A stretch of DNA of 44,015 bases from a virus: the IMG/VR virus record IMGVR_UViG_3300025864_000025, positions 1 through 44,015 of that record; one strand, written 5' to 3'. The notes under the pieces were generated by a model. The model did no database searches. It saw only the letters and a program-made list of their open reading frames with translations, and was not told where the DNA came from. A program made the translations under genes and the position numbers. This document shows positions 12,239 to 43,578 of this stretch, piece after piece. How positions within the stretch are numbered: the stretch's first letter is position 1; the number at the start of each line of letters is the position of its first letter.

Positions 12239-12740
12239 TAAGCATCACTGGGTCAACTACAGTGATGAGAAGCTGGACCGGGCCTACGTCGCGAACATGG
12301 CGGCACAACGCGGCACAGCACTCCATGATCTGGCGCGTGATCTGATTCGAATGGGAGTCAAACTCCCTCGCACTCCGAAGACGATCAACATGTATGTCAA
12401 CGATGGGATTGGATTTCGTATGGTGCCAGAACAGGTGCTGTACTACTCGCCCAACGCGTTTGGCACTGCTGACACGATCTCGTTCCGCAAGGACTGCCTT
12501 CGTATCAGCGACTTGAAGACTGGGATCACACCCACTTCGATGCGCCAATTGATGGTGTACATGGCGTTCTTCTGCCTGGAGTACCGGGTCAAGCCTAGTG
12601 AGATTGCGGCTGAACTTCGGATCTATCAGAATGATGAGGTCAAACTCTGCATCCCGGAGGTTGATGAGATCTTGCACATCATGGATCGCATCATCTCGTT
12701 TGACAAGCGGATCAACACCATGCGAGAGGAGGACCTGTAA
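12174..12740 (+). CDS. PD-(D/E)XK exonuclease-like protein
   Basis: Up to 188 residues. Motifs, numbered from the ATG at 12174: RGTALHDLA (H51), FGTADTISF (D100), ISDLKTG (D113, K115), and MRQLMVYMAFFCLEYRV (Q125, Y129). This H-D-DxK-QxxxY set is that of RecB/Cas4-type nucleases acting on DNA ends. The start is uncertain: 12174 overlaps the VRR-NUC gene by 65 bases with a poor ribosome site, and a TTG at 12207 just before EGFHAFLS is a good alternative. The stop overlaps the next ATG by one base. It probably works with the helicase and VRR-NUC in recombination or DNA-end processing. Confidence 0.8.
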   Translation: MCSMRFTRHSELEGFHAFLSASKHHWVNYSDEKLDRAYVANMAAQRGTALHDLARDLIRMGVKLPRTPKTINMYVNDGIGFRMVPEQVLYYSPNAFGTADTISFRKDCLRISDLKTGITPTSMRQLMVYMAFFCLEYRVKPSEIAAELRIYQNDEVKLCIPEVDEILHIMDRIISFDKRINTMREEDL

Positions 12741-15451
12741 TGAGTGAGGAATTTCTTGCGCACATCGGCGTTCTCCATCGTTCGGGTCGGTACCCTTGGG
12801 GAAGTGGAAGAACTCCGCACCAGCGCAATCGCATGTTCATCGACACGGTGGAACAGCACCACCAAGATGGCATGAGCGAATCGGAGATTGCCAAGGCGTA
12901 TGAGTTGACCACCACCCAACTTCGCGCGCTCAAGACCATCGCAAAGACAGAACAACGTCAGGCCAATGTTGCCATGGCTCTGCGACTCAGAGAGCCTCCA
13001 CGATCGCTTTCAAATGTGGCAATTGGCGCCAAGATGGGCATTCCTGAGTCGTCTGTTCGTAGTCTCTTGAACCCAGCGTTGCAAGAGAAGAACGACATCC
13101 TTGCAACAACGGCCTCCATGCTGCGTGACAACATTCAGAACTTGGGTGCGATTCAGGTCGGCATTGGTGTGGAAACACACTTGGGCATCAGTAAGGAGAA
13201 ACTCGCTACTGCAGTTGCTGTGCTGCAGGAAGAGGGTTACGCCTTCCACAAGATCCAGACAGACCAGTTGACCACAGGTAAGAAGACCATCATCAAGGTC
13301 TTGGCACCTCCCGGGACAACCTATGTGGATCTTGTCAAGGACACGAGTCAGATACACTTGATGAAGCAGGTGTCGTCCTATTCTGAAGATGGAGGGCGTA
13401 CTTTCGAGTCCATTAACTCGACGCCAACCAACTTTAGTTCCAAGCGATTGGCCATTCGCTACAAGGAACAAGGTGGCGATCAAGCAGATGGAATCCTCTT
13501 CATCCGTCCTGGTGTTCCTGACGTGTCTCTTGGCGGCGGGCTCTACAAGCAGGTTCGTGTTGCTGTTGATGGCACGCACTACATCAAGGGCATGGCCATG
13601 TACAAGGATGACCTTCCCGCGGGCATCGACATCGAGTTCAACACGCCAAAGCATGACACAGGCAACAAACTCGAAGCACTGAAGCCTCTCAAGTCGGACA
13701 AGGATCTTCCTTTTGGGTCTATTGTTCGGCAGTCTCACTACATCGATGCTTCTGGAAAGAGGAAACTCTCAGCGATAAACATCGTCAACGATGAGGCTGA
13801 TTGGGATGAGTGGTCTCGTAATCTTGCGTCTCAGATGCTTTCTAAGCAGAAGCCAGAGTTAGCCAAGCAGCAATTGGCGATGACTTTTGAGCGCAAGAAG
13901 TTACAGTTTGACGAGATCATGTCGCTTACCAATCCGGCGGTCAAGAGAAAGATGCTTGAGGAATTGGCAGACAGTGCTGATTCAGCAGCCATGCATCTCA
14001 AAGCAGCCGCTCTTCCTGGTCAGAAGACGCACGTCATTCTGCCTTTCAGCAGCCTCAAGCCAGATGAGATCTACGCGCCGAACTACACAGATGGCACGCA
14101 TGTCGTTCTCATTCGATACCCCCATGGTGGGATCTTCGAGATTCCGGAACTGGTGGTCAACAACCGAAGCAGGAAGATCAAAGCCATCATAGGCAACGCT
14201 GTGGTTGCTGTCGGCATTCACCCAAGTGTTGCTGAGAAACTCTCTGGTGCTGATTTTGACGGTGACACCGTTGTGGTCATTCCCAATCAGCCACGTGGGT
14301 TGCACTCTATTCAGACTTCGGATTCTCTTGATGGGCTCAGAAACTTTGATCCAAAGAGGGCATACCCGAAGTATGAAGGCATGAAGGTCATGACTAGTGA
14401 TGGCACCCAACAGCAAATGGGTAACATCACAAATCTGATCACAGACATGAACATCAAGGGCGCCACACACGCCGAACTTGCTCGTGCTGTTCGCCATTCC
14501 ATGGTAGTGATTGACGCTGAGAAGAAGGAGCTCAACTACAAGCAATCAGCCAAAGATCATGGCATTGCAGAACTGAAAGCCAAGTATCAGGCGAAACCTG
14601 ATGGTTCTGCTGGCGGGGCGTCAACTCTAATCTCAAGAGCCGCTTCTGAAGTGCGTGTTGATCAGCGAAAGCAACTGTCAGGCGCAAGAGGCATTAACCC
14701 TGTCACAGGCGAAAAGGTGTACGAGTACTCGGGAAAGACGTACCCGAAAAGGACTACAAGCAAGCGTACAGGAATAGTCACAGAACGCACCATCAAAAAG
14801 ACAGTGATGTCTACAAGGATGGCAGAGACTCCTGATGCGCGCACTCTTGTGTCTTCTAATGGCGGGAAAGTCATAGAGAGAGTCTATGCTGATCACGCTA
14901 ATCGTCTCAAAGCCCTAGCCAACACTGCACGTAAGGAGACTCTAAATATAAAATCAACCCCATACAGTCCTTCTGCAAAGACCGCCTATGCAAAAGAAGT
15001 GGCCTCTTTGGCGCAGAAGCTAAATACTGCCCAGAGAAACGCCCCCCTTGAGCGTCAAGCCCAACTCGTAGGCAAGTCGATTGTCAAGGCTAAGTTAGAT
15101 GACAATCCAGGAATGTCGTCTTCTGAACTCAAGAAGGTTCAAGGTCGTGCACTACTAGATGCACGTAATGCCTTGGATGCCAAGAAACAGAAGATTGAGA
15201 TTACCAAGTCTGAGTGGGATGCTATTCAAGCAGGCGCCATTACTAACAACCGGCTTACTGAGATCCTAAGGCATACGGATCCAGACAAAGTCAAAGCGTT
15301 GGCCCTGCCACGCATCAACCCTGTTATGAGTAAGGTCATGCTAACACGTGCCCTATCTATGCAGGCATTGGGCTACACACAGGCAGAGATCTCTACACAA
15401 CTGGGCATACCTGCTACTACAATAGGTAGTGCTCTTATGAAGGAAGGTTAG
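12740..15451 (+). CDS. Double-psi-barrel RNA polymerase-like protein (YonO/QDE-1-like)
   Basis: A 903-residue protein. The key block GIHPSVAEKL then SGADFDGDTVVVIP (DFDGD at 505-509) parallels the bacterial beta' block with HPLVCAAFNADFDGDQMAV. The three Asp residues are the metal ligands of RNA synthesis in multisubunit RNA polymerases and in single-chain YonO/crAss-type phage enzymes. Preceding blocks LKAAALPGQKTHVILPFSS and YAPNYTDGTHVVLIRYPHGG probably belong to the barrel region. The N-terminus has FLAHIG (5-10) and SGRYPWGSG (15-23), then helix-turn-helix-like segments near 45-65 and 95-115. A further one, GYTQAEISTQLGIPATTIGS, ends the protein. It starts on the previous stop codon. Polymerase activity is inferred from the signature. 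The N-terminal peptide resembles one in the structural protein at 19522. Confidence 0.78.
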   Translation: MSEEFLAHIGVLHRSGRYPWGSGRTPHQRNRMFIDTVEQHHQDGMSESEIAKAYELTTTQLRALKTIAKTEQRQANVAMALRLREPPRSLSNVAIGAKMGIPESSVRSLLNPALQEKNDILATTASMLRDNIQNLGAIQVGIGVETHLGISKEKLATAVAVLQEEGYAFHKIQTDQLTTGKKTIIKVLAPPGTTYVDLVKDTSQIHLMKQVSSYSEDGGRTFESINSTPTNFSSKRLAIRYKEQGGDQADGILFIRPGVPDVSLGGGLYKQVRVAVDGTHYIKGMAMYKDDLPAGIDIEFNTPKHDTGNKLEALKPLKSDKDLPFGSIVRQSHYIDASGKRKLSAINIVNDEADWDEWSRNLASQMLSKQKPELAKQQLAMTFERKKLQFDEIMSLTNPAVKRKMLEELADSADSAAMHLKAAALPGQKTHVILPFSSLKPDEIYAPNYTDGTHVVLIRYPHGGIFEIPELVVNNRSRKIKAIIGNAVVAVGIHPSVAEKLSGADFDGDTVVVIPNQPRGLHSIQTSDSLDGLRNFDPKRAYPKYEGMKVMTSDGTQQQMGNITNLITDMNIKGATHAELARAVRHSMVVIDAEKKELNYKQSAKDHGIAELKAKYQAKPDGSAGGASTLISRAASEVRVDQRKQLSGARGINPVTGEKVYEYSGKTYPKRTTSKRTGIVTERTIKKTVMSTRMAETPDARTLVSSNGGKVIERVYADHANRLKALANTARKETLNIKSTPYSPSAKTAYAKEVASLAQKLNTAQRNAPLERQAQLVGKSIVKAKLDDNPGMSSSELKKVQGRALLDARNALDAKKQKIEITKSEWDAIQAGAITNNRLTEILRHTDPDKVKALALPRINPVMSKVMLTRALSMQALGYTQAEISTQLGIPATTIGSALMKEG

Positions 15452-40478: not shown

Positions 40479-40504
40479 CGCGGGAGATACATGGGTCATA
40501 GTGA
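40478..40504 (+). promoter_or_regulatory. Phage promoter-like element, copy 3
   Basis: ACGC at 40478 (variant of TCGC), ACATGG at 40489, then GTCATAGTGA. Downstream GACCC can pair with GGGTC around the TATA-like part. It overlaps the holin stop codon and drives the gene at 40527. Confidence 0.75.
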
Positions 40505-40526
40505 GACCCTCTTGAAAGGAGAGCCC

Positions 40527-40829
40527 ATGTTCAAACGCAAGAAGCCAGTCCCTGACGACCTCGACGATGCCATCCACGACGCCCACGCCTTCCTCAAAGG
40601 TGCGACCGACGGCTCCGATGAGTACACGAAAACGGTCGACCAGCTCGTCAAGCTCTACAAGATGAAGGACTCCCAGGAGCCCCGCAATCGCGTGAGCAAA
40701 GACGGCCTGATCGCCGCTGCCGCGTCTGTCGGTTCCGTCGTCCTCATCCTCCTGTTCGAGGGTGTGGGCCGTGGAATCATCACGACCAAGTCGCTGGGCT
40801 TCTCGCCCAAGCCGAAGAACCCGCGCTAA
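40527..40829 (+). CDS. Small membrane protein, conserved in actinophages
   Basis: 100 residues from ATG 40527 with GAAAGGAGAG upstream. A charged N-terminal half (VPDDLDDAIHDAH, DEYTKTVDQLVKLYKMKD) is followed by VSKDGLIAAAASVGSVVLILLF as one membrane segment and the end ITTKSLGFSPKPK. I recall this layout in small uncharacterised actinophage proteins. It is the first gene of the small-gene cluster and has its own promoter-like element and a long hairpin after it. Confidence 0.75.
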   Translation: MFKRKKPVPDDLDDAIHDAHAFLKGATDGSDEYTKTVDQLVKLYKMKDSQEPRNRVSKDGLIAAAASVGSVVLILLFEGVGRGIITTKSLGFSPKPKNPR

Positions 40830-40843
40830 CCAGCAAGACCCTC

Positions 40844-40895
40844 AGAACGTAGAGGCCATGTGTGGACCTAAAAACCCACATGGCCTCTACGTTCT
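40844..40895 (+). terminator. Long hairpin, probable terminator
   Basis: The arms 40844-40862 and 40877-40895 are perfect 19-bp complements (core CGTAGAGGCCATG). Two further G-C pairs follow beyond a bulged T. The loop contains ACCTAAAAA. No T-run follows directly, so processing or bidirectional termination is possible. The right arm leads into ACATGGGTTGTAAAAT, a degenerate echo of the promoter-like element. Confidence 0.65.
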
Positions 40896-40947
40896 ACATG
40901 GGTTGTAAAATTTTCCCGAGGGGGTCAAATCCGTGGAACAAAACAAC

Positions 40948-40974
40948 TCGCGAGAACTACATGGGCTTTAATGA
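40948..40974 (+). promoter_or_regulatory. Phage promoter-like element, copy 4
   Basis: TCGC at 40948, ACATGG at 40959, GCTTTAATGA following. It precedes the gene at 41002. Confidence 0.78.
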
Positions 40975-41001
40975 GACCACCCCCTCTAACAAAGGAATAC
41001 C

Positions 41002-41208
41002 ATGTCGAAGACCACTTCGCTCAAGGTCTTGAAGTTCGCCCCCGGCGTACACCACTTCCACTCCCACGAGGACTACCAGCGCTACTACAAGCACCGGCCA
41101 TCCATCAAGGAGTTGCTGCGGTTCGCGCCCAACGGCGACATCAAGATCGAGATCACGAGGCACCTCCTCGGTGTGTACTACACCTACAAGATCGTGTCCG
41201 TCTCCTGA
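41002..41208 (+). CDS. Small basic hypothetical protein
   Basis: A 68-residue protein with CAAAGGAA before the ATG. It is rich in His, Tyr and Lys (GVHHFHSHEDYQRYYKHRP). The C-terminal half is strand-rich (DIKIEITRHLLGVYYTYKIV). It is soluble, with no recognised family. It is a single-gene unit between promoter copy 4 and the terminator at 41213-41240. Confidence 0.68.
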   Translation: MSKTTSLKVLKFAPGVHHFHSHEDYQRYYKHRPSIKELLRFAPNGDIKIEITRHLLGVYYTYKIVSVS

Positions 41209-41212
41209 GACT

Positions 41213-41240
41213 GAGCCCCCAACAAGGGCTCTTTCTTTTC
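41213..41240 (+). terminator. Rho-independent terminator
   Basis: GAGCCC (41213-41218) pairs with GGGCTC (41226-41231) around CCAACAA. TTTCTTTTC follows. Promoter copy 5 starts within the T-run. Confidence 0.88.
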
Positions 41241-41265
41241 GCGAGGGATACATGGGTCATAATGA
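41239..41265 (+). promoter_or_regulatory. Phage promoter-like element, copy 5
   Basis: TCGC at 41239, ACATGG at 41250, GTCATAATGA following. It directly abuts the preceding terminator and precedes the 43-residue gene at 41292. Confidence 0.8.
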
Positions 41266-41291
41266 CACCCCCTCAACAGAACGGAACCGAA

Positions 41292-41423
41292 ATGACAAAC
41301 AACATTCGCCCATCCGATGCAGCCAAGGCCGGCCTGTCCGTCACCATCCTTGTGGCGCTCATGCTGCTCCCCGTGCTCATCATCGCGTGGGCGGCCAAGT
41401 GGATCTATCGATCCCGCCGTTAG
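41292..41423 (+). CDS. 43-residue single-pass membrane protein
   Basis: MTNNIRPSDAAKAGLSVTIL continues into one membrane helix (about residues 14-36, ending AWAAKWIYRSRR) with a basic C-terminus, indicating N-out/C-in. The ribosome site is weak (ACGGAACC), but the promoter-like element upstream, the good membrane pattern and the structured terminator downstream support a real gene. It resembles toxin-sized phage membrane peptides; its function is unknown. Confidence 0.62.
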   Translation: MTNNIRPSDAAKAGLSVTILVALMLLPVLIIAWAAKWIYRSRR

Positions 41424-41436
41424 GGCGATCAAATCT

Positions 41437-41513
41437 GAAGGCCCCAGGAATGGGTAAGCGATCGGCAGGCTTAACTGTCCCGACCGCCGAAGTTCCTGGG
41501 GTCTTCTCTTTTT
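41437..41513 (+). ncRNA. Structured 3' RNA / terminator A
   Basis: GAAGGCCCCAGGAA (41437-41450) pairs with TTCCTGGGGTCTTC (41493-41506), 14 bp with one G-T. The 42-base apical region has TCGGC/GCCGA pairing. TCTTTTT follows. The loop is far larger than those of the simple terminators nearby. The GCCCCAG/CTGGGG-TCTTC stem recurs at 41719-41794. Confidence 0.7.
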
Positions 41514-41514
41514 G

Positions 41515-41541
41515 TCGCAGGATTTACATGGCGCTTAATGA
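41515..41541 (+). promoter_or_regulatory. Phage promoter-like element, copy 6
   Basis: TCGC at 41515, ACATGG at 41526, CGCTTAATGA following. The first bases after it (GAAGA) begin a non-coding structured segment. Confidence 0.8.
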
Positions 41542-41622
41542 AGACCCATATCTTGTACCCGCCCAACTCCTGAGAGTGGCTGATACTGCATCCGATTGCA
41601 AAGATACGGCTCTTCACTTTTT
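41540..41622 (+). ncRNA. Predicted small structured RNA B
   Basis: It starts at the G of TAATGA. GAAGA (41540-41544), CC and TATCTT pair with AAGATA, GG and TCTTC (ending 41615), with two mismatches. Inside are two short hairpins: ACTC-CTGA-GAGT (extendable by CC/GG past a bulged A) and TGCA-TCCGAT-TGCA. This is a three-way junction. CACTTTTTG ends it like a terminator. It has a promoter-like element, no open frame with a ribosome site, and about 80 nt length. Confidence 0.62.
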
Positions 41623-41624
41623 GC

Positions 41625-41651
41625 TCGCAAGAATTACATGGGTCTTAATGA
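41625..41651 (+). promoter_or_regulatory. Phage promoter-like element, copy 7
   Basis: TCGC at 41625, ACATGG at 41636, GTCTTAATGA following. It starts 3 bases after the T-run of RNA B. Confidence 0.8.
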
Positions 41652-41800
41652 AGAATGGAACGTAAACCGTCCGTGACACCCTTGTCGCCGATTGTAAGAA
41701 TCCATCTTCAAATGGAGAGCCCCAGAATGTTTTGGACTACGCTTGATCGATTCACCATCAAGATCGCCTCTAGTTCCTGAACGCTGGGGTCTTCATTTTT
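41650..41800 (+). ncRNA. Predicted small structured RNA C
   Basis: The 5' stem GAAGA-TGGA (41650-41659, one bulged A) pairs with TCCATCTTC (41701-41709). The 3' stem CCCCAG (41720-41725) pairs with CTGGGG (41784-41789) and is followed by TCTTCATTTTTT. The 5' end GAAGA and the 3' stem copy features of RNAs B and A. There is no ribosome site and no convincing reading frame over ~150 nt between two promoter-like elements. Confidence 0.6.
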
Positions 41801-41803
41801 TGT

Positions 41804-41830
41804 CCGCAAGAATCACATGGCTCATAATGA
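41804..41830 (+). promoter_or_regulatory. Phage promoter-like element, copy 8
   Basis: CCGC at 41804 (variant), ACATGG at 41815, CTCATAATGA following. It precedes the gene at 41860. Confidence 0.78.
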
Positions 41831-41859
41831 CATCCCCTACGCTTTGAAAGGACACTACC

Positions 41860-42102
41860 GTGACCGAGAACCAGCCTCAGGAGCCCGTCACCGTTGTCTT
41901 GCTCCAAGACTCCCCCACCACCAAGCAGCAGCTCACGTCCGCCGCGATCCAGATCGGTGCCGCACTCGCGGTCCCCGTCTTGTTCGTCGTCGGCCTCGGC
42001 GCTGTCGGTGTGGTGAGCTCCGTCAAGGACAAGATCGCGGCGCGTAAGCTCCGGAAGCACGGACCCGACCTCACCGTCGTCCCTCTGAACCCGGAGGACT
42101 AG
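41860..42102 (+). CDS. Single-pass small membrane protein
   Basis: An 80-residue protein with a GTG start after GAAAGGA. A polar N-terminus (TENQPQEPVTVVLLQD) leads to a hydrophobic helix about residues 28-52 (QIGAALAVPVLFVVGLGAVG), then a basic segment (KDKIAARKLRKHG). The function is unknown. It resembles in build the proteins at 43602 and 40527, with short N-terminal Pro/Gln regions and one membrane span. The terminator follows 8 bases after the stop. Confidence 0.7.
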   Translation: MTENQPQEPVTVVLLQDSPTTKQQLTSAAIQIGAALAVPVLFVVGLGAVGVVSSVKDKIAARKLRKHGPDLTVVPLNPED

Positions 42103-42109
42103 AACGTCT

Positions 42110-42141
42110 GGCTACCCCTAAAAAGGTAGCCTTTCGTTTTT
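42110..42141 (+). terminator. Rho-independent terminator
   Basis: GGCTACC (42110-42116) pairs with GGTAGCC (42125-42131) around the loop CCTAAAAA. TTTCGTTTTTC follows. Confidence 0.92.
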
Positions 42142-42143
42142 CT

Positions 42144-42170
42144 TCGCACGAAACACATGGGTCTTAATGA
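42144..42170 (+). promoter_or_regulatory. Phage promoter-like element, copy 9
   Basis: TCGC at 42144, ACATGG at 42155, GTCTTAATGA following. GACC downstream mirrors GGTC upstream of the TAAT core. Confidence 0.8.
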
Positions 42171-42197
42171 CATGACCCTACTCCGAAAGGAAATCTC

Positions 42198-42311
42198 ATG
42201 AACAACCAAAAATACGGCCTCTTCCGCTTCCTGGTTGACTGTGTTCTCACGGTCATCACCGGAGGCCTCTGGCTCATCTGGGTGTTCGTCCGCGAGATCC
42301 GCAAGGGCTAG
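42198..42311 (+). CDS. 37-residue membrane peptide
   Basis: The sequence MNNQKYGLFRFLVDCVLTVI, then TGGLWLIWVFVREIRKG, is one hydrophobic span ending in basic residues. CGAAAGGAAAT gives a good ribosome site. It is enclosed by promoter copy 9 and the terminator at 42319, so it is a complete one-gene unit. Similar tiny proteins with a GGLWLIW core occur in other actinophages as I recall. A host-membrane or exclusion role would be speculation. Confidence 0.7.
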   Translation: MNNQKYGLFRFLVDCVLTVITGGLWLIWVFVREIRKG

Positions 42312-42318
42312 ACAGACT

Positions 42319-42351
42319 GGAGACCCCTAACAAGGTCTCCTTTCTTTTCTG
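42319..42351 (+). terminator. Rho-independent terminator
   Basis: GGAGACC (42319-42325) pairs with GGTCTCC (42334-42340) around the loop CCTAACAA. TTTCTTTTC follows. Confidence 0.92.
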
Positions 42352-42377
42352 CACGACCCAACCCGAAAGGTAGTACC

Positions 42378-42563
42378 ATGGACGACACTGAGGCTGAGAT
42401 TGCCTTGCTCAACGCCATCCAGCATGTCTTGGACGCGTGGCGGTTTGCCGGCATCAACCCGAACTACCACGCTCAGCAGAAGAGGGAACTCCAGAAGAAG
42501 TGGCCGGTGCTCTACAAGGCGCTGGTTGCTCTCGACCAGAAGGCTGGCGCGCCCTCGCAGTAA
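42378..42563 (+). CDS. Small soluble hypothetical protein
   Basis: A 61-residue helical protein (EIALLNAIQHVLDAWRF, QQKRELQKKWPVLYKALVAL). GAAAGGTAG precedes the ATG. There is no promoter-like element between it and the upstream terminator, so it depends on read-through or an unseen promoter. Its last codons carry the start of promoter copy 10. Confidence 0.65.
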   Translation: MDDTEAEIALLNAIQHVLDAWRFAGINPNYHAQQKRELQKKWPVLYKALVALDQKAGAPSQ

Positions 42564-42581
42564 ACACACGGGTCATAATGA
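42555..42581 (+). promoter_or_regulatory. Phage promoter-like element, copy 10
   Basis: TCGC at 42555, ACACGG at 42566 (ACATGG variant), GTCATAATGA following. CGGGTC and GACCCG (42587-42592) form a perfect 6-bp inverted repeat around the TATA-like core. Confidence 0.78.
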
Positions 42582-42715
42582 GAATAGACCCGCAAGGGTA
42601 CTGAGACACGAATGCGCAGGTCCGAACCCTGCCCAGTGTGGCGCCACGGAAAAAACAGACGCTTAACGAACTGACTTTAGTTGGGCCAGTTACCTGTTCT
42701 CATCTTTTTTCTGAG
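42582..42715 (+). ncRNA. Structured leader upstream of DUF6353 copy B
   Basis: ACCC-GCAA-GGGT gives a GNRA tetraloop hairpin near 42588-42599. GCAGG-TCCGAAC-CCTGC (42616-42632) has the exact 5-bp/7-nt form of a tRNA T-arm. GTGGCGCCAC is a 10-base palindrome (42638-42647). AACTG/CAGTT pairing and TTTTTT follow near 42669-42712. About 130 bases before the ribosome site are non-coding. It may be a regulated leader or a small RNA with its own terminator. Confidence 0.5.
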
Positions 42716-42734
42716 CCTCTTGAAAGGAGGATCG

Positions 42735-43514
42735 ATGCAGATCGGTAGCATCATCAAGGCCACGCAACTCGTGGTCAAGCACAACGCGCCGGCAATCCTC
42801 ACCGCTGTCGCAGTCGCAGGGACGATCACCACGGGACTCTTTGCGGCCAACGCTGGCGCCAAGGCATCTCGTGCCATATCCCGCGAGGAGATCCGTCATG
42901 GGCACCCCATCAGTGGGCCCGCGGAACTCACCGTCAAGGAGAAGGTCAGGATTGTATGGCCACTCTTCATGCCCGCAGTCGGGATGGGTGTCCTTACGGT
43001 CGCGTGCACCATCGGCGCGAACCACATCGGCGGACGACGCGCAGCAGCACTCGCTGGCGCATATTCGCTCTCTGAGAAGGCGTTCTCGGAGTACAAGGAC
43101 AAGGTCACTGAGACCATCGGCAAGAAGAAGGAGGAGAAGGTCCGGGACGCTGTCGCCCAGGACCAAGTCACTCGGAACCCGCCGACAACCACCGAGATCG
43201 TCATCACGGACACCCAGGACGTCGTCTGCTATGACGCCATATCTGGTCGGTACTTCACGACCAGCATGGAGAAGCTTCACGGGGCCAGGAACGACCTCAA
43301 CAAGCAGATCCTCGACGATGGGTACGCGTCCCTGAACGAGTTCTGGGATCTCCTCGGTCTCGATGGAACCACGATCGGCGAGGAACTTGGCTGGTCGTCT
43401 GACCACCTGCTCGAGCTCCACATCACCACGACGCTGGCTAAGGACGGCAAACCCTGTCTCTCGCTGGGGTATATTCGCGCTCCGGAAGCGAACTACTACA
43501 AGGCGTTTCACTGA
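42735..43514 (+). CDS. DUF6353-type phage membrane protein, copy B
   Basis: 259 residues from ATG 42735 after GAAAGGAGG. It has two membrane segments: about 15-37 (APAILTAVAVAGTITTGLFA) and about 74-95 (WPLFMPAVGMGVLTVACTIGA). GRRAAALAGAYSLSEKAFSEYKDKV follows, aligning with the same block of the 1792-2670 protein. The C-terminal domain (FTTSMEKLHGARNDLNKQIL, YASLNEFWDLLGLD, LGWSSD, LELHITTTL) is more typical of DUF6353 than copy A. The function is unknown. Two diverged copies in one small genome suggest distinct partners. Confidence 0.8.
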   Translation: MQIGSIIKATQLVVKHNAPAILTAVAVAGTITTGLFAANAGAKASRAISREEIRHGHPISGPAELTVKEKVRIVWPLFMPAVGMGVLTVACTIGANHIGGRRAAALAGAYSLSEKAFSEYKDKVTETIGKKKEEKVRDAVAQDQVTRNPPTTTEIVITDTQDVVCYDAISGRYFTTSMEKLHGARNDLNKQILDDGYASLNEFWDLLGLDGTTIGEELGWSSDHLLELHITTTLAKDGKPCLSLGYIRAPEANYYKAFH

Positions 43515-43551
43515 ACTCTCCGATGCATGCGTGAGTGACTGCTCGTAGTCC

Positions 43552-43578
43552 TCGCAAGAAACACACGGCTCATAATGA
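43552..43578 (+). promoter_or_regulatory. Phage promoter-like element, copy 11
   Basis: TCGC at 43552, ACACGG at 43563, CTCATAATGA following. It precedes the gene at 43602. Confidence 0.8.

Follow-up and report, generated by a model that had tools for sequence, protein, structure and literature searches.

CsrB and RsmZ are repeat-hairpin RNAs that serve as protein sponges. Among phages, RNA genes of a different kind have been linked to host defence: phage tRNAs are associated with evasion of tRNA nucleases and of tRNA-targeting defences (PMC10264068; PMC11555353). Single-chain two-barrel RNA polymerases are known from YonO and from the non-virion RNA polymerase of Thermus phage P23-45, and in the case of YonO transcription begins upstream of an unannotated non-coding RNA (PMC5467207, PMC10770324). 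A promoter-like sequence has been described in the related Gordonia phage Vardy, which carries a 50-bp intergenic TATAAT-bearing repeat that was interpreted there as a sigma-70 promoter (PMC9671010).

The locus described here lies in a stretch of 44,015 nucleotides (hereafter the window). Because its first 127 bases are identical to its last 127 and it comes from an IMG/VR virus record (IMGVR_UViG_3300025864_000025), the window appears to be a complete phage record; its genes for structural proteins and DNA metabolism are similar to those found in siphophages of actinobacteria. Small genes, most of them with a promoter and hairpin terminator of their own, form an array in the right part (40479-43578), and the product of most array cassettes is a small protein. 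One small gene is followed, at 40844-40895, by an inverted repeat of 19 perfectly matched bp around a 14-nt loop, which exceeds the array's other terminators in length. The protein encoded at 17-625, when used as a route to relatives, led only to the same phage, and nucleotide searches in phages with the region and with cassette D (see below) gave just short promoter or terminator matches; relatives were instead found through a conserved neighbouring gene that encodes a DUF6353 protein. The features discussed below are as follows; individual related loci are given by L numbers.

12740..15451, + strand: gene for a 903-aa predicted two-barrel RNA polymerase, the presumed user of the promoter (PHROG 4291; sigma-region-4-like HTHs near both ends)
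41437..41512, + strand: segment A, the long structured end hairpin of the preceding small ORF's transcript (z -5.80; no promoter match upstream)
41516..41541, + strand: promoter element of cassette B (promoter scan)
41540..41621, + strand: candidate RNA cassette B (z -4.21; GAAGA start pairs with TCTTC ahead of the T-run; two inner arms)
41626..41651, + strand: promoter element of cassette C (promoter scan)
41650..41800, + strand: cassette C, RNA gene or tiny peptide gene (z -4.66; two structured halves, then a T-run)
41727..41780, + strand: 17-codon ORF inside C with GGAG upstream, possible peptide MFWTTLDRFTIKIASSS (ORF and ribosome-site scan)
42556..42581, + strand: promoter element of cassette D (promoter scan)
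42580..42712, + strand: RNA cassette D, of a conserved RNA family (GAGAA start pairs with TTCTC ahead of the T-run)
42600..42637, + strand: core of D, a 4-bp stem, linker AGACACGAATGC and T-arm-like hairpin GCAGG-TCCGAAC-CCTGC (42.7 bits)
42669..42691, + strand: 3' hairpin of D, AACTG...CAGTT, with conserved loop TTTAGTTGG (in relatives, the loop is the pseudoknot partner of the linker)
42735..43514, + strand: DUF6353 gene, directly 3' of D (E 4e-78)

The promoter element and a predicted two-barrel polymerase

The promoter-like element recognized in the initial annotation of this DNA proved to be real and strand-specific. A matrix built from nine copies in the window located the 26-bp element (consensus CGCAAGAATTACATGGCTTATAATGA) at 700 sites in 115 related loci. 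In the sampled relatives the sites lie nearly all on the coding strand, and 79 held-out viral loci, fetched via the neighbouring DUF6353 protein and left out of matrix building, gave 393 forward matches as against 0 reverse matches. The conserved stretch opens with TCGC, whose first base lies 19 nt upstream of TATAAT, and continues for about four bases beyond TATAAT; it contains no TTGACA box, TCGC and ACA being conserved instead. The sigma-70 consensus calls for a TTGACA-like box 16-18 nt ahead of TATAAT; among the array promoters scanned with it, the copy at 41800-41828 alone passed. A promoter pattern ending in AAGA was dropped, most of its 23 matches being due to chance.

The predicted polymerase falls in a protein group (PHROG 4291) that carries the name RNA-dependent RNA polymerase, and its DFDGD catalytic motif is invariant in 21 aligned homologues. 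A sequence search against the PDB gave no match, and matches came from fold comparison alone: the structural model, of modest confidence (pLDDT 68.5, pTM 0.37), best matches polymerases of the P23-45 group of phages (Z 12.3 and 11.9) and RDR2 and QDE-1 (Z 10-12). By this model, the product is predicted to have a double-psi beta-barrel polymerase fold. Relatives occur in 250 phage records, and many of them are annotated merely as helix-turn-helix protein; in the records of L033 and L048 the match is in two pieces, split near residue 551, a possible insertion beside the catalytic region. The polymerase was found in 9 of 14 contigs with the promoter, the rest being fragments, versus 0 of 6 contigs with chance matches, and the phage's two-barrel polymerase probably reads the promoter.

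Candidate RNA cassettes in the window

The three segments that had been described as structured, A, B and C, are real, in that each folds more stably than all of 200 shuffles (z of -5.80, -4.21 and -4.66, respectively). A promoter had been placed ahead of each; this is borne out for B and C, and A has no upstream match. Segment A begins 13 nt past the stop codon (41421-41423) of the ORF ending at 41423, and it is the end hairpin of that ORF's transcript, not an independent cassette. B and C do start straight after the promoter core, as had been noticed, and the GAAGA at their start pairs with a downstream TCTTC. In B, this pairing extends to TGAAGA with TCTTCA immediately 5' of the T-run. In C, the partner is an internal TCTTC near 41705; the first half (41650-41709, z -4.12) is followed by a second (41711-41796, z -3.07) closed by a stem of its own, AAATGGAGAGCCCCAG/CTGGGGTCTTCATTT. 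The GCCCCAG...CTGGGGTCTTC stem said to be common to A and C is also present. The proposal that A, B and C arose by duplication and divergence has found no support: they share terminator/promoter junctions only, the best common run outside the junctions is 17 nt, and homology is not demonstrable.

The region had also been taken to hold no convincing gene. This stands for B, in which a search for an ORF with a ribosome site found none, and is less clear for C, in which GGAG and ATG precede the 17-codon ORF, so that C may be a peptide gene. The ORF sits in the stem of C, and a tiny peptide with a sequestered ribosome site is possible. No convincing homologues of A, B or C were found in related loci; as individual RNAs, B and C are predicted from the sequence and unproven.

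Cassette D, which was absent from the earlier reading, is a fourth ORF-free unit and the only one of the four with homologues, beginning with a match to L047/L048 (E 2e-14). The core of its family consists of a 4-bp stem, a linker AGACACKAATGY (GACACKAATG-type) and a hairpin whose loop resembles a T-loop (TTCGAAT, TCCGAAC, TGAAAAT or TTGAAATC). Among 13 lineages, drawn from viromes and from Arthrobacter, Gordonia and Rhodococcus phages and aligned by manual registration of the columns with removal of single inserted bases, 100% of cells are paired and two-sided changes occur in 8 of 9 pairs. A covariance model of D was run over 558 kb of held-out loci. It found nine sites, each of them on the coding strand at a distance of 33-58 nt downstream of a promoter match. 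Eight are new members (six of them at E < 1e-3); the ninth, L093, is ReqiPoco6 itself, a genome that the training set already contained. The window's own core, likewise a training member, scores 42.7 bits (E 3e-9), with its promoter at 42556. The compensatory changes that a covariance model had been expected to reveal thus appear when the model is run on D and its relatives: in the joint set of 21 sequences, in an alignment fitted to the model, 180/180 cells are paired and two-sided changes occur in 9/9 pairs, with 53 double-changed cells versus 13.6 in shuffles and 0 of 500 shuffles reaching the observed value.

The linker and the downstream loop obey a pseudoknot rule, by which CKAA of the linker pairs with TTAG when K is T and with TTCG when K is G. 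The pairing is exact in 9 of 13 relatives (shuffled mean 1.9, maximum 7), and later members such as L066 and L129 also follow the rule. In the window's own D, CGAA faces TTAG with one G.A mismatch, and the fold z is weak (-1.44). D-loop/T-loop kissing within D is not claimed, because the T-loop changes without a matching change. No Rfam family corresponds to D, and the D model found no match in 39 genome loci with DUF6353, mostly from Firmicutes. D is a member of a conserved RNA family absent from Rfam.

ORF-free cassettes in related phages

Such units are frequent across the relatives. By a mechanical filter that will misplace a few units either way, and with some loci being near-duplicates, 115 of the 700 promoter sites, in 62 of the 115 loci, are not followed by an ORF that has a ribosome site. 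The first bases of these units (GAGAAG, GAAGAG, GAGAGG, GAAAGG and others) pair with bases just 5' of the T-run. The frequency of this pairing is highest precisely at the G that follows TATAAT, where it is found in 41% of ORF-free versus 8% of ORF units; the 41% is likely an underestimate, since the 3' ends were set mechanically. In 2000/2000 shuffles, swapped ends pair less well than a unit's own, and the ends therefore covary. The position of the peak suggests that the transcript probably starts at this G; initiation directly after TATAAT is unusual for a host sigma promoter. Several Streptomyces-phage relatives have the promoter array with no clear RNA cassette. The core idea of the initial annotation, structured small phage RNAs driven by a promoter, holds and applies lineage-wide across related loci. 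The existence of phage RNA genes in the array is well supported, and the evidence for a class of RNA cassettes, which appears to be undescribed among open-licence papers, is strong.

Searches of the window and its relatives against Rfam, at gathering and at relaxed thresholds, gave tRNA matches in sister cassettes only; A through D themselves, examined as tRNAs with a cloverleaf and 7-nt anticodon loop, gave no ARAGORN call and no Rfam tRNA match. Of 55 cassettes, 6 contain a canonical T-arm (some of the six being related to each other), versus 0.2 in shuffles, a density about 18 times that in genomes at large. The cassettes of Gordonia phages contain a full cloverleaf with a 4-bp anticodon arm and a 4-nt loop (GCAA, ACAA or GAAA); this arm and loop, in place of a 7-nt anticodon loop, are found in Hydrus, L061, L071 and L131. 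The Gordonia cloverleaf keeps the universal elbow bases, begins at the promoter and ends in a terminator without CCA. It scores 42.6 bits as an Rfam tRNA, ARAGORN calls no tRNA in it, and it matches 34 Gordonia phage records with no annotated feature beneath. In L013 there is a 53-nt version that lacks an anticodon arm and has D-like and T-like arms, and a 60-nt form is found in Inked, Loretta and Caterpillar. The cloverleaf of ReqiPoco6 was rejected as an anticodon-less case: ARAGORN reads it as tRNA-Ala(AGC), so that this cassette is ambiguous and could be either a normal tRNA or an intermediate form, and the anticodon-less claim rests on the Gordonia phages.

Other cassettes have two or three near-identical hairpins (L039 26567, L067 7166, L071 7263, L054 4257, L076 2395 and L058 15730), and that of phage Qui carries GTGAAAAAGATCGCWCTGACGATCAC three times, like the binding-site arrays of protein sponges. 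Separately, one RNA cassette is common to L038 22926 and L045 4145 (Argan, Arcadia); it carries a conserved motif, AAGGTATC...TTCTACGTA, and is another candidate for an RNA family. Annotated protein genes overlie RNA cassettes at L004 5371-5634 (Inked gene 42) and, on the minus strand, L043 5771-6049 (Loretta gene 41); both are probably spurious, because nothing is annotated there in most relatives.

Possible functions and comparison with known systems

The favoured reading, to which we assign a probability of roughly 55%, is that the array consists of short cassettes of which D, B and probably C make structured RNAs that act as decoys. Each cassette, made up of a promoter, a short transcript and a terminator, would be transcribed by the phage's own two-barrel polymerase from the G right after TATAAT. 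What the sequences show is the layout, its strand bias, and the structures with their covariation and conservation; transcription itself and its timing are inferred. Since the first 5-8 nt pair with the terminator base in most cassettes, the finished RNA would be end-closed and protected, and closed ends would yield stable RNAs. Across relatives, the shell and the genome position are constant and the core is variable (T-arm plus pseudoknot in the D family, cloverleaf tRNA mimics, tandem identical hairpins), a pattern suggestive of stable RNAs that tie up host RNA-binding proteins as decoys or sponges. The most likely targets would be proteins that recognize the tRNA elbow, either tRNA-targeting defence nucleases or tRNA-processing enzymes, and the non-decoding tRNA-shaped RNAs would be best explained as bait for readers of the tRNA elbow or acceptor. 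A decoy or protein-binding role, one of several suggested at the outset, is plausible and has gained weight from the tRNA-like sister cassettes; it would be read from the resemblance of these cassettes rather than from B or C. More tentatively, there may be a lineage-wide class of end-closed decoy RNAs made by the two-barrel polymerase, including the pseudoknotted T-loop family and the anticodon-less tRNA mimics, that disarms tRNA-recognizing host proteins. The weakest link is the placement of B and C as lineage-specific members of the same class, because homologues of these two were not found.

The cassettes could alternatively release, between promoter and terminator, antisense small RNAs that base-pair with host or phage mRNAs. 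Their size of 55-150 nt and terminator-ended form match bacterial small RNAs, the conserved linker and loop of D are unpaired, and B at 41561-41568 (GCCCAACT) is a perfect complement of AGTTGGGC in the D loop (42680-42687). However, an 8-nt match of this kind is close to chance expectation (the D site itself is conserved), the linker and loop pair together, the structure of D is retained while its sequence drifts, and the cores of the cassettes are wholly different from one another, all of which makes antisense action unlikely. Somewhat less likely still, B and C may be promoters and terminators left over after decay of small-protein genes, or C a tiny peptide gene. Most array cassettes do encode small proteins, C has its 17-codon ORF behind GGAG, and B and C have no homologues found in related loci; yet B and C fold significantly, ORF-free cassettes with covarying ends in 62/115 loci are not expected from decay, and the conservation of the D family shows cassettes of this type being retained as RNA genes. 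Finally, regulators that bind the phage or host polymerase and switch between them can be largely discounted: end-closed RNAs resemble the outline of 6S RNA and these occur in phages with an unusual polymerase, under its presumed promoter, but the cassettes have no common core and no gathering-level Rfam match to 6S or any other non-tRNA family.

About 250 sequenced phages of Arthrobacter, Gordonia, Streptomyces, Rhodococcus and others encode such a predicted polymerase, and many of those sampled have RNA cassettes in unannotated stretches or under doubtful genes. The decoy reading would point to an overlooked RNA-based manipulation of the host, and the RNAs, if decoys, would be ready natural inhibitors of bacterial defence or tRNA enzymes.

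Two kinds of known RNA were considered and set aside. For a type III toxin-antitoxin RNA, neither 41437-41800 nor 42580-42712 contains units repeated in tandem, and the gene after D encodes DUF6353. For an RNA anti-CRISPR or CRISPR-repeat mimic, the sole match is CRISPR-DR36 at 42586-42607 (E 1.5, chance level and far below gathering), and the hairpin beneath it is not conserved in relatives. The tandem cassettes L039_26567, L067_7166, L071_7263 and L054_4257 resemble CsrB/RsmZ in their two or three near-identical hairpins; they differ in that the repeat loops vary between phages and match no family, and B, C and D have no such repeats. Phage tRNAs that evade defences (PMC10264068; PMC11555353) are likewise tRNA-shaped phage RNA genes with a plausible tie to tRNA-targeting host enzymes, and the Rfam tRNA model matches two of the sister cassettes. 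Those tRNAs decode, whereas the Gordonia-phage cassettes have a 4-nt loop, terminator closure and no CCA; D has just a T-arm-like hairpin, and B and C have none. The 50-bp repeat of Vardy (PMC9671010) comes from the same lineage and the same part of the genome, and it too is a TATAAT repeat interpreted as a promoter. What was reported there is only five copies in a single phage, described as sigma-70 promoters driving protein genes; the RNA cassettes went unnoticed, the Vardy cloverleaf lying in an unannotated gap. With YonO and the P23-45 polymerase (PMC5467207, PMC10770324), the window's enzyme would share the single-chain two-barrel form, and it differs in having sigma-region-4-like HTHs near both chain ends and a conserved candidate promoter seen across the genome. 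The start proposed after TATAAT would provide a concrete hypothesis for promoter recognition by a YonO-like polymerase, a question left open in PMC5467207.
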